Origin: Taeniopygia guttata
Taxonomy: Eukaryota; Chordata; Aves; Passeriformes; Estrildidae
Reading direction: 5' to 3'
NCBI RefSeq assembly: GCF_048771995.1
Contig: NC_133059.1
Coordinates: 3,709,001 to 3,773,000, forward strand
Length of the DNA: 64,000 nucleotides
Shown here piece after piece: positions 317 through 62,700 of the stretch. Under the pieces are notes generated by a model. That model was not told where the DNA came from. It saw nothing but the letters and a program-made list of their open reading frames with translations, and searched no databases. Position 1 is the first letter of the stretch; each line of letters opens with the position of its first letter. A program made the translations under genes and the position numbers.

Positions 317-3300
317 GGGGCTGAAGGACATGGAGCTGGACACGTCGTCCATCGAGAAGCGCTTCGCCTTCGGCTTCCTGCAGCAGCTGCTGCGCTGGAT
401 GGACATCGCCCAGGAGTTCATCGCACACCTGGGTGAGACCCCAAATCCCTGGGGGCACCCCAAATCCCGGGGGCACCCCCAAATCCCGGGGGGCACCCCC
501 AAATCCTGGGTGAGATCCCCAAACCCCCCGAATTTTCCCTGATCCCCTGGGAGTCCCCCCAATCCCCTGGGAGTTCCCCAGGATTGACATCGCCCAGGAG
601 TTCATCGCACACCTGGGTGAGACCCCAAATCCCTGGGGGGCACCCCACATCCGGGGGCACCCCAAAATCCCGGGGGGCACCCCAAAATCCCGGGTGAGAC
701 CCCCAAACCCCCCGAATTTTCCCTGATCCCCTGGGAGTTCCCCAGGCTGGACATCACCCAGGAGTTCATCGCACACCTGGGTGAGACCCCAAATCCGGGG
801 GGCACCCCCAAATCCCAGGGGGGCACCCCAAAATCCCAGGGGGGCACCTTCAGACCCCCCAAACCCCCGGGAGCCCCCCAAACCCCCCGGCAGCTCTCCC
901 AGCCCTGCCTGGACGTCCCCCAGGAGTTCATTTGGGTGCGACCCCAAATCCCGCGGGGGGTGACCCCAAATCCCGGGGGTGACACCCCCAAATCCTGGGG
1001 GGGCCCCCCAAACCCCTGGGACCCCCCGGGACCCCCCTGACCCCCGTTCCCCCCCAGAGGCCGTGGTCAGCAGCGGGCGGGTGGAGAAATCCCCCCACGA
1101 GCAGGAGATCAAGTTCTTCGCCAAGGTCAGCGGACCCCAAAAACGGGGGAGAGACACCCCGAAAACGGGGGCAGGACACCCCAAAAATGGGGATGGAACA
1201 CCCCAAAAATGGGGATGGAACACCCCAAAACCCCCTCAAAATGGGAGGGGGAGGGGGGATGGGGGTCAGGGTGGTTTTGGGGTCTCTGTGGGGTATTTGG
1301 GATTCTTACAGGTTTGGGGAGATTTTTATGGGGTATTGGGGTTTTTCTGGGGTATTTGGGGTCTCTATGGGGTATTTGGGGTCTCTGTGGGATATTTGGT
1401 GTCTCTGTGGGGTATTTGGGGTTCTTACAGGTTTTAGGAGATTTTTATGGGTTTTTTTGAGGTTTCTGTGGGGTTCTGTGGGTCTCTATGGGGTATTTGG
1501 GGTCTCTGTGGGGTATTTGGGGTTCTTACAGGTTTTAGGAGATTTTTATGGGTTTTTTGAGGTTTCTGTGGGGTTTTGTGGGTCTCTGTGGGGTATTTGG
1601 GGTCTCTGTGGGGTATTTGCTGTCTGTGTGGGGTATTTGCTGTCTCTAAGGGGTTTTTGGTGTCTCTGTGGGGTTTTTGGTGTCTCTGTGGGGTTTTTGC
1701 TGTCTCTGTGGGGTATTTGGGGTCTCTGTGGGGTATTTGGTGTCTCTAAGGGGTTTTTGCTGTCTCTGTGGGGTATTTGGGGTCTCTGTGGGGTATTTGC
1801 TGTCTCTGTGGGGTATTTGCTGTCTCTGTGGGGTATTTGCTGTCTCTAAGGGGTATTTGCTGTCTCTGTGGGGTATTTGGGGTCTCTGAGGGGTATTTGG
1901 GGTCTCTGTGGGGTATTTGGTGTCTCTGTGGGGTATTTGGGGTCTCTGAGGGGTATTTGGGGTCTCTGTGGGGTATTTGGGGTGTCTGTGGGGTATTTGG
2001 GGTCTCTGAGGGGTATTTGGGGTCTCTGTGGGGTATTTGGGGTGTCTGTGGGGTATTTGCTGTCTCTGTGGGGTATTTGCTGTCTCTGTGGGGTATTTGG
2101 TGTCTCTGAGGGGTATTTGCTGTCTCTGTGGGGTATTTGGGGTCTCTGTGGGGTATTTGCTGTCTCTGTGGGGTATTTGCTGTCTCTGTGGGGTATTTGG
2201 GGTCTCTGTGGGGTATTTGCTGTCTCTGTGGGGTATTTGGGTCTCTGTGGGGTATCTGCTGTCTCTGTGGGGTTTTGTGGGTCTCTGTGGGGTATTTGCT
2301 GTCTCTGTGGGGTATTTGGGGTCTCTGTGGGGTATTTGGTGTCTCTGTGGGGTATTTGCTGTCTCTGTGGGGTATCTGCCCCCCCCCCCGTGCATTTTTT
2401 GGGGTCCCCGGGGGTTTTGGGGTGCCGCTGACCCCCGTACCCGCAGATCCTGCTGCCCCTGATGCACCAGTACTTCCACAACCACTGCCTCTACTTCCTC
2501 TCCACCCCGGCACAGCTGCTGGGCAGCGGCGGCCACGCCTCCAACAAGGAGAAGGAGATGATCACCAGGTGGGACCCCAAAATCCCACCCCAAATCCCAT
2601 CCAAAAATCCCAACCCCAAAATCCCAACCCCAAAATCCCATCAAAAAATCCCATCAAAAAATCCCAACGCCAAAATCCCATCAAAAAATCCCAACGCCAA
2701 AATCCCATCAAAAAATCCCAACGCCAAAATCCCATCAAAAAATCCCAACCCCAAAATCCCATCCAAAAATCCCACCCCAAAATCCCATCAAAAAATCCCA
2801 ACCCCAAAATCCCATCAAAAAATCTCAACCCCAAAATCCCAACCCCAAAATCCCAGCCCCAAAATCCCACCCCAAAATCTCCCGAGGCCAAAATCCCATC
2901 AAAAAATCCCAACCCCAAAATTTCCCGAGGTCAAAATCCCATCAAAAAATCTCAACCCCAAAATCCCACCCCAAAATCCCACCCCAAAATCCCACCCCAA
3001 AATCCCACCCTAAAACCCCCTAAGGCCGGGGAGGGGGGGGTGTCCCCCTTGTGTCCCTCCCAGGGGGGTTTTGGGGACCCCCTTGTGTCCCTCCCTGTGG
3101 GGTTTGGGGTTTTGGGGACCCCCTTGTGTCCCTCCTGTGGGGTTTTGGGGACCCCCTTGTGTCCCTCTCTGTGGGGTTTGGGGTTTTGGGGACCCCCTTG
3201 TGCCCCTCCTGGGGGGGTTTGGGGTTTTGGGGACCCCCTTGTGTCCCTCCCAGGGGGGTTTTGGGGACCCCCTTGTGTCCCTCCCGGGGCGGTTTGGGGT

Positions 3301-59700: not shown

Positions 59701-62700
59701 TCCCCATTTTCCCCCCTTTCCCCCTTTTCCCCCCTTTTCTCCCTTTTTTTCCTCTTTTTTTCCTGTATTCCCATTCCCATATTCCCATTCCCGTATTATT
59801 CCCAATTCCATTTCCCAATCCCATATTCCCATTCCCATATGCCCATTCCAAATCCCATATTCCCATTCCCAATTTCCCATTCCCAATTTCCCATTCCCAA
59901 TTTCCCATTCCCAATTTCCCATTCCCAATTTCCCATTCCCATATTCCCATTCCCAACCCCATATTCCCAATCCCGTTTTTCCTCAGGCGGAGACGGCGGC
60001 GAATCGGATCTGCAAAGTTCTGGCCGTGAACCAGGAGAACGAGCAGCTCATGGAGGACTACGAGCGCCTGGCCTCGGATGTAAGGGGGGGAAATCCCAAA
60101 TCCCACCCCAAAAACACCCCCAAAACACAAAACCACTCCCAAACCTCTCACAGAGCACTGTGAGCACCTGGCCTCAGATGTAAGGGGGGAAAATCCCAAA
60201 TCCTACCCCAAAACCACCCCAAACCCCCTCCCAGATCCCCAAACCCCTGTTTCCCAGCTGCTGGCGTGGATCCAGCCCCATCCCAAACCTCAAATCCCTT
60301 CCCACACCCCACCCCACATCCCAAATCCCATCCCACACCCCACCCCACATCCCAAACCCCATCCCACACCCCAAACCCCATCCCAAACCCAATCCCACAC
60401 CCCAAATCCCACCTCAAACCCCACCCCAAACCCCACCTCACACCCCACACCCCAAATCTCTCCCCAGCTGCTGGCGTGGATCCAGCGCACAAACCCCATC
60501 CCAAACCTCATCCCAAACCCAATCCCACACCACAAACCCCACCTCACACCCCACACCCCACATCTCTCCCCAGCTGCTGGCGTGGATCCAGCGCACCATC
60601 CCCTGGCTGGAGGCGCGGGACCCGCAGAAAACCATCCCGGCCATGCAGCAGAAGCTGGAGGATTTCCGCGAGTACCGCAGGGTGCACAAACCCCCCAAGG
60701 TGCAGGAGAAGTGCCAGCTGGAGATCAACTTCAACACCCTGCAGACCAAACTGCGCCTCAGTGGCCGGCCCGCCTTCATGCCCTCCGAGGGCAGGATGGT
60801 CTCGGTGGGTCTGGGGGCTTCGGGGTCCTGGTGTGTCCTAAACCCACCCTAAACTGCCCCAAATCTGCCCTGACCTTCTGAGGGCAGGATGGTCTCGGTG
60901 GGTCTGGGGGCTTCAGGGTCTTGGTGTGTCCTAAACCCACCCTAAGCTGCCCCAAATTTGCCCTGACCCTCTGAGGGCAGGATGGTCTTGGTGGGTCTGG
61001 GGGTTTCGGGGTCCTGGGGGGGGCTTAAACCACCCTGAACTGCCCCAAATCTGTCCCAGCCCTCCGAGGGCAGGGTGGTCTTGGTGGGTCTGGGGGCTTT
61101 GAGGTCCTGGGAGGAGATTTGGGGGTTCTCGGGGGGTCCTAAACCCACCCCCTTGGGAGCTGTCAGAGGGCAGGGTGGGCTCAAGGGACTTGGGAGGGTC
61201 CCTGGGGGGTTTTGGGGTGAGCCTGGTGGTTTTTGGGGTGACTCTGAGGGATTTTGGGGTGACCCTGGGGGATTTTGGGGTGACTCTGGGGGTTTTTGGG
61301 GTCCCCAGGACATCGGGGCAGGGTGGCAGCGCCTGGAGCAGGCCGAGAAGGGCCACGAGGAGTGGCTGCTGACGGAGCTGCGGCGCCTGGAGCGCCTGGA
61401 TCACCTGGCCGAGAAATTCCGGCAGAAAGCCTCGATCCACGAGGGCTGGACGGAAGGTACCGGGGTGGGGGTCAGGGCCTGGGTTTGGGGGGGCTGGGGA
61501 TGGGACTGGGGGTGCAGGAGATGGAACTGGGGAACGGGGAATGGATTTGGGGGTTCAGGGGATAGAATTGGGACGGCAGGGGATGGATTTGTGGAGCAGA
61601 GAATGGAACTGGGGGTTCAGACCCCGGGATTTGAGGATTCAGGCTGTGGATTTGGGGAGCAGGGGATGGAACTGGGGAGCAGGGGATGGATTTGGGATTC
61701 AGGAGATGGAATTGGGGAGCAGGGGATGGAATTGGGGAATGGGAAATGGATTTGGGGGTTTAGGGGATGGATTTGGGTGTTCAGAGGATGGATTTGGGGA
61801 TGACAGGGATTCAAGGGTGTCCCCACACCTGTGCCAGGTAAGGAGGTGGCACAGGGGGTGTCCCAGGTTAATTTTAAGGGTCTCAGGGGTGTCCCCACAC
61901 CTGTGCCCAGGTAAGGAGGTGGCACAGGGGGTGGCACAGAGAGGGATTTGGGGTCACAGGGGTGTCCCCACACCTGTGCCAGGTAAGGAGGTGGCACAGG
62001 GGGTGTCACAGGTTAATTTTAAGGGTCTCAGGGGTGTCCCCACACCTGTGCCAGGTAAGGAGGTGGCACAGGGGGTGGCACAGGTTAATTTTAAGGGTCT
62101 CAGGGGTGTCCCCACACCTGTGCCAGGTAAGGAGGTGGCACAGGGGGTGGCACAGAGAGGGATTTGGGGTCTCAGGGGTGTCCCCACACCTGTGGCAGGT
62201 AAGGAGGTGGCCCTGCGGGACCGGGACTCGGGCACGGCCTCGCTGGCCCAGGTGCGGGCGCTGCTCCGCAAGCACGAGGCCTTCGAGTCGGACCTGGCGG
62301 CGCACCAGGACCGGGTGGAGCAGATCGCGGCCATCGCCCAGGAGCTCAAGTATGGGAACCCAAAACACCCCCAAATTGGACCCCAAAATCACCCCCAAAG
62401 TGTCCTGTGGGGAGACCCCAAAAGCAGCTCCCAGCCATCACCCAAGTACAGGATGGGAGACCCCAAAATATCCCCAGAATAACCTGAGAGATGTCCCAAA
62501 ATACACCCGAAAATATTACCAAGTGAATAACCCAAACTATCCCAAAATACACCCAAAATGACCTGAAATATTCCCACGCTTTTTCCCCTTTGCACCTTTT
62601 CCCACTATTTTCCCCTTTTCCCCTTCTCCCTTTTCCCATGGCCTTTCCCTCTTTTCCCACTGTTTTTTTCCCATTCCCCCCCCCCATTTTTCCCCATTTT

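Follow-up and report, generated by a model that had tools for sequence, protein, structure and literature searches.

Tandem copies of exon edges in introns of RYR1, EIF3K and ACTN4 of Taeniopygia guttata: very probable exon stuttering by randomly placed tandem duplication

The window analysed here is a stretch of 64,000 nucleotides of the Taeniopygia guttata genome (C36:3709001-3773000), which carries the 3′ part of RYR1, EIF3K and the 5′ part of ACTN4. In introns of all three genes, an end of the neighbouring exon is repeated in tandem together with its splice donor or acceptor. We consider it highly probable that this pattern represents exon stuttering as published for chicken dot chromosomes by Hron et al. 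2026 (Genome Biol Evol, PMC12954441), here on a dot chromosome of another bird, and that it stems from long-unit tandem duplication at positions that are random relative to the exons. The assembly totals 1.14 Gb in 41 contigs, of which C36 measures 4.45 Mb; from its size and GC content alone, C36 falls in the dot-chromosome class. The GC content per 2-kb bin is 0.55-0.73 in 29 of the 32 bins of the window and 0.485-0.513 in the three others, which lie in the ACTN4 part.

Exon edges are copied in the introns of three genes

Exons were marked from splice signals and reading frame, giving 69 exons with 66 introns between them and 132 splice-site edges. Copies were read from one assembly. The three genes are the following.

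317..39371, + strand: RYR1, 3′ part; 47 exons (r1-r47), open frame of 2087 aa, GT-AG introns
41071..44334, + strand: EIF3K; 8 exons, 218 aa; match to eIF3k in the PDB with E=4.7e-136
44746..63266, + strand: ACTN4, 5′ part; 14 exons from the start of the gene, the alternative pair 8a/8b among them, with an open frame of 510 aa when 8a is read; match to actinin in the PDB with E=4.7e-287

The coding sequence is intact: the RYR1, EIF3K and ACTN4 parts are open and aligned along their length to PDB relatives, and both halves of the RYR1 part match solved RyR1 structures end to end. Among the annotated exons of the three genes, none was seen with a border lengthened or cut by an array. Because the frames are open and the alignments of all three genes clear, the exon borders used here are very probably the functional ones.

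The terminal 70 nt of each exon served as query, and a match with a local score of at least 12 lying no more than 5 nt from the exon edge was counted as an anchored copy. The adjoining introns hold 75 matches at this score, of which 68 are anchored and seven are not (one for r1, four for r17, one for r25 and one for r32). The anchored copies belong to 17 exons, 20 of the 132 edges (11 acceptor, 9 donor) and 19 of the 66 introns, with 41 copies of exon starts at the 11 acceptors and 27 copies of exon ends at the 9 donors. The distance to the border is 0-1 base in 58 of the 68 and 2-5 in the other ten, the seven further matches lying farther away. Captured edges occur at nearly equal rates in RYR1 (14/92), EIF3K (2/14) and ACTN4 (4/26). 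A preliminary description of this DNA had counted about 70 copies at no fewer than 16 exons of three genes, in units that include the splice site and increase in number along with it, and our figures bear this out.

In the anchored set, copies of exon starts lie solely upstream of their exon and copies of exon ends solely downstream. An AG is present in 40 of the 41 start-copies and a GT in 25 of the 27 end-copies, the exceptions being the r10 copy at 9412 (TG) and both copies of the EIF3K exon k3 (AT). The preliminary description had stated the same two rules, with AG and GT kept in nearly all cases, and both hold. The retention of AG and GT is explained by the closeness of the copies, since sequences with a mean identity of 97% in the exon part (61 copies with a score of at least 17) show it anyway. 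The copies at each edge are listed below, with exon coordinates in brackets.

581..780, +: r1 (317-432) 3′ end, two copies, each with a GTGAGA donor
5145..5340, +: r6 (5516-5754) 5′ end, two copies, AG kept; one more, degenerate, noted by eye near 4803 and left out of the count
6868..7132, +: r8 (7176-7306) 5′ end, three copies, AG kept
7653..8416, +: r9 (8462-8776) 5′ end, six copies, AG kept; three third-codon-position differences from the exon common to all six
9412..9591, +: r10 (9671-9911) 5′ end, two copies, AG in one of the two; TG in the copy at 9412
10118..10758, +: r10 3′ end, three copies, GT kept
13508..14072, +: r14 (14136-14306) 5′ end, six copies, AG kept
14582..15363, +: r14 3′ end, five copies, GT kept
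15928..16768, +: r16 (16809-16943) 5′ end, eleven copies, AG kept
17539..17759, +: r17 (17913-18025) 5′ end, two copies, AG kept
17014, 17108, 17316 and 17387, +: four degenerate r17 units farther upstream, without the exon edge and outside the 68
19480..20331, +: r19 (19315-19421) 3′ end, eight copies, GT kept
28324..28574, +: r29 (28075-28203) 3′ end, two copies, GT kept
33810..33873, +: r37 (33975-34105) 5′ end, one copy, AG kept
37569..37599, +: r43 (37341-37497) 3′ end, one diverged copy, GT kept
41291..41322, +: EIF3K k2 (41417-41515) 5′ end, one copy, AG kept
42097..42237, +: EIF3K k3 (41607-41727) 3′ end, two copies (42097, 42199), both with AT instead of GT
60162..60179, +: ACTN4 a9 (59987-60079) 3′ end, one short copy, GT kept; score 12, the weakest of the set
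60258..60497, +: ACTN4 a10 (60574-60804) 5′ end, two copies, AG kept
60880..61083, +: ACTN4 a10 3′ end, three copies at a spacing of exactly 93 bp, GT kept
61838..62139, +: ACTN4 a12 (62199-62349) 5′ end, five short copies at a spacing of 72-73 bp, each AG/GTAAGG; score 13 each

A stricter scan of whole exons against their own flanking introns (score at least 17) returned 61 copies, all in sense orientation and all on the predicted side. At this score, reversed exons gave no match, and neither did the antisense strand. Reversed queries at a score of at least 12 gave no match within 3 nt of an edge and three elsewhere, all with a score of 12. The sole wrong-side match scoring at least 13 concerns exon a1 (score 14) and lies away from the edge. 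A chance origin of the copies is excluded by the reversed, antisense and wrong-side controls.

Copies multiply from copies

Tandem arrays detected with Tandem Repeats Finder (TRF) cover 40,293 of the 52,302 intron bases (77%). The spacings in the r16 array are 92, 73, 73, 82, 92, 73, 73, 83, 83, 74 and 83, and TRF finds a 320-bp period at 94%. As the spacing block 92-73-73-82 is followed by 92-73-73-83, four units were duplicated here as one block. All three r8 copies carry CACAG where the exon has CGCAG, and the two k3 copies share a dead donor. Copies thus multiply from copies, irrespective of splicing, and not each time from the exon.

Exon and copies were compared at edges with at least two copies. 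Of the 1014 exon sites, only 6 are distinct from all copies and 41 from some, which points either to a recent origin of the arrays or to a degree of continuing exchange with the exon. Three of the six are third-position changes in r9, whose array has drifted apart.

The pattern extends upstream in RYR1 and is absent from its paralogues

A further 40 kb of RYR1 upstream of the window was annotated by means of a small exon-finding program for which the window served as training data. On the RYR1 part of the window this finder called 40 of the 47 exons exactly, while 23 of its 63 calls were inexact, 14 of these on captured edges; for this reason, reading phase and visual inspection were used to curate the upstream exons. 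These 31 exons encode 1845 residues in a single open frame; where the last of them (u31) starts is uncertain. At a score of at least 17, this region gave 71 matches, of which 67 are anchored at 18 of 62 edges and the other four are interior pieces; reversed and antisense controls at the same score gave none. AG is present in 40 of 40 start-copies and GT in 25 of 27 end-copies. One upstream exon (C36:3683394-3684402) contains an in-frame coding tandem array of 63 nt x 4.3 copies in an acidic stretch. This array is not present in 5t9v, the one solved RyR1 shown aligned.

The RYR paralogues of the same genome, on C7 (65.0 Mb) and C4 (115.6 Mb), have no copies at 156 edges. Their exons were located one by one, 40 on C7 and 38 on C4 of the 47, and the same scan was applied to 266 kb, each intron being counted once from each side. 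This control omits r13, r21, r26, r33 and r34, which were left out beforehand, and r46 and r47 (C7) or r44-r47 (C4), which had no usable match in the stretches covered. In the window, the same 40 exons have 53 copies at 14 edges. The preliminary description had proposed a regional expansion process. The lack of copies in the paralogues on large chromosomes agrees with this; however, the region belongs to a dot chromosome, and on such chromosomes the phenomenon had already been described in chicken.

Sidedness follows from the geometry of tandem duplication

We propose that long-unit tandem duplications, of tens to hundreds of bases, would arise across GC-rich introns at positions random with respect to the exons. 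A unit spanning one splice site would leave the complete exon at one end of the array and, towards the intron, partial exon copies that include the splice site. If the unit began in the exon and ended in the downstream intron, the resulting order would be exon, unit, unit, and the extra copies would consist of exon ends with their donor, downstream of the exon; the mirror unit would yield exon starts with their acceptor, upstream. The array might then grow by itself, at times in multi-unit blocks, via unequal exchange or replication template switching. Both routes appear to fit, and the data do not choose between them; the duplication mechanism is also left open in the available parts of Hron et al. 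2026 (PMC12954441).

As long as the unit includes a single splice site and only part of the exon, the finding of starts upstream and ends downstream is a geometric necessity. The rules follow from tandem duplication and are therefore unusable as evidence for a special mechanism. The placement of arrays was assessed on 62 non-overlapping TRF arrays with a unit of at least 60 bp, an overlap being defined as at least 8 nt of exon. Eight of the 62 straddle an exon edge, compared to 8.4 expected under random unit placement. Nothing in this result suggests a preference of arrays for exon borders, and splice-directed copying was rejected on the basis of this match.

Several observations weigh against random tandem duplication on a dot chromosome as the explanation. 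The random-position null is crude, and TRF detects 8 of the 20 captured edges. As to a homology-driven first step of the duplication, junction microhomology is uninformative, being 0-1 nt at 18 of the 20 edges and 4 nt at two (r9 and r6), with a mean of 0.65 against 0.38 at random (p=0.047); the 4-nt value at r6 stems from a further degenerate array copy. Gene and exon structure are matched in the paralogues but base composition is not, their regions having a GC content of 34% compared to 66% in upstream RYR1, and the control distinguishes the loci without telling an effect of GC from one of chromosome type. The published cases of exon stuttering come from chicken (PMC12954441, in the parts of the text available). 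Finally, nine predicted exons in six 10-kb pieces of contigs of 4.4-10.1 Mb had no edge copies and three matches off the edge, in a sample that is small and built on predicted exons. The pieces were chosen for matching a window array or adjoining such a match; two of them are below 46% GC and one yielded no exon. The prediction cut applied to them called true exons in 33/38 and 27/28 cases on RYR1. Exon capture may thus be patchy, with a varying density, and the RYR1-ACTN4 region may be a hotspot which needs its own explanation.

Alternative explanations and possible use of the copies

A process aimed at exon borders, through R-loops, splicing-coupled copying or RNA-templated copying, would seed the copies from the exon itself. 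Such a process would account for copies that include the splice site and have one end on its exon side, and the otherwise unique exon is a clear origin. However, straddling arrays occur at the frequency of random placement, antisense copies are absent from the window and from upstream RYR1, the copies include flanking intron, and some of them share mutations that are not in the exon. We regard a border-aimed process as very improbable. Strand asymmetry of intron composition was also considered as a cause of the copies and set aside: G-skew is higher at the donor end than at the acceptor end in 34 of 50 introns (p=0.018), which is a weak signal.

The strength of the copied splice sites was estimated with a matrix built from 144 real donors and 144 real acceptors (in each case 66 from the window and 78 from the paralogues). 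The copies score like real sites, with a median difference of 0.0, and 42 of the 68 score equal or higher. Use of a copy would extend the exon by a multiple of three in 23 of 68 cases, which is the chance level, and 37 of the 68 extensions contain stops. Thirteen extensions are in frame and stop-free, including those of the two k3 copies with dead donors and four at ACTN4 a12. No sign of selection for usable or in-frame copies was found among the 68 extensions. The scores and the thirteen open extensions, four of them at one exon, would be expected if copies were kept by selection as alternative splice sites for functional isoforms, but the chance-level phase, the frequent stops and the duplication of k3 copies with dead donors argue against it, and we give this explanation even less credit than a border-aimed process. 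The row of competing splice sites announced in the preliminary description is real as sequence; with regard to use, the phase of the extensions gives it no backing. The least credible explanation is repeated misassembly of hard GC-rich introns, including errors in copy number: the copies are known here from one assembly alone and PMC12954441 warns, in its available parts, that local variation can be technical, but the copies differ in substitutions and spacing, one array has a higher-order block, and the same kind of array is reported there as verified in raw nanopore reads of chicken PHF8.

The nearest acceptor-donor pair is in every case that of the intact exon; under exon definition, the gene would therefore tolerate the array. 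The ACTN4 a12 copies (61838-62199) read CAG/GTAAGG, with a strong donor immediately after the acceptor, and resemble recursive splice sites in 72-73-nt steps. There is a slim chance, judging from sequence, that some copies are used, in which case dot-chromosome genes would possess unstable and individually variable splice-site sets. The best candidate would be ACTN4 a12, where four in-frame, stop-free copies in 72-nt steps would produce alpha-actinin-4 in length steps of 24 residues that differ among birds.

Other features of the region

Two similar consecutive 86-nt exons of ACTN4 (57641-57726 and 58510-58595) are the alternative exon 8 pair of vertebrate ACTN4. This pair is an old duplication of a whole exon, separate from the young arrays. 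RYR1 has two tiny exons, of 15 nt (13057-13071) and 18 nt (25223-25240), located where mammals have two alternatively spliced micro-exons; no copies of either were found within 3 kb, allowing up to 20% mismatches. The gap between RYR1 and EIF3K (39372-41070) measures 1.7 kb. Mammals carry MAP4K1 between these genes; here it appears to have been lost from the gap, consistent with dot-chromosome gene loss, or moved elsewhere in the genome, which was not searched.

Comparison with chicken exon stuttering and other known systems

The preliminary description knew of no earlier account of the pattern, which is in fact published. According to the available parts of Hron et al. 2026 (PMC12954441), introns on chicken dot chromosomes show 'sequence stuttering', and the term 'exon stuttering' stands for the copying of a lateral exon part with its splice donor or acceptor through the adjoining intron. 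In chicken, 236 introns of 115 genes show exon stuttering, 190 of them on dot chromosomes, among 5,572 dot introns, and more than 90% of the sources lie within 1 base of the border. The ohnologue PHF2 is without exon stuttering, and nanopore reads confirmed the PHF8 introns; of 192 introns with exon stuttering, 183 vary in length among individuals. Local expansions were seen in other birds too. No description was found in the literature searched beyond that paper under 'exon stuttering' or 'sequence stuttering' with intron, the only match on RYR1, ACTN4 and microchromosomes was a paper on galectin evolution, and the passages available from the complete chicken genome paper (PMC9974502) and the MicroFinder paper (PMC13192246) make no mention of exon copies.

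Our arrays share with chicken exon stuttering the tandem partial copies of lateral exon parts with their splice site in the adjoining intron, the location on a dot chromosome, the absence from ohnologues elsewhere, the length of the exon parts (tens of bases) and introns made mostly of tandem repeats. The published description, as far as those parts of it go, matches in all features tested here. With the chicken cut-offs (blastn-short, at least 20 nt and at least 42.1 bits), applied without the published manual review, 16 of the 66 introns qualify, compared to 190 of 5,572 on chicken dots. They hold 50 proximal matches; the three distal ones all come from the GAG-rich exon r19 and lie in an ACTN4 intron. 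Differences remain. The present case is another bird genome, and RYR1, EIF3K and ACTN4 are unnamed in the main text of PMC12954441. Repeat blocks crossing into exons were not observed according to the available text, whereas here a long-unit array sits inside a coding exon a short way upstream of the window.

What is new here is exon stuttering in another bird genome, at high density (16 of 66 introns) and in three genes absent from the main text of PMC12954441. It is an independent replication with a same-genome control in the RYR paralogues, in which the sidedness rules are accounted for by geometry. Evidence that copies breed copies regardless of splice function, and a coding exon with its own long-unit array just outside the window, are further additions. 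The density of the RYR1-ACTN4 region makes it a good test bed for how duplications start, and the RYR paralogues provide matched-gene controls within one genome. Splice sites appear as passengers, and a splice-directed mechanism is no longer needed.

Intron gain by tandem genomic duplication is a general model in which tandem duplication multiplies splice sites. There, a new intron is made in an exon; here, an existing splice site is straddled and no intron is gained. With ordinary intronic minisatellites, the arrays share their tandem structure, unequal growth and higher-order units, but the unit in the RYR1-ACTN4 region includes coding sequence and a splice site, and does so at 20 of the 132 edges.

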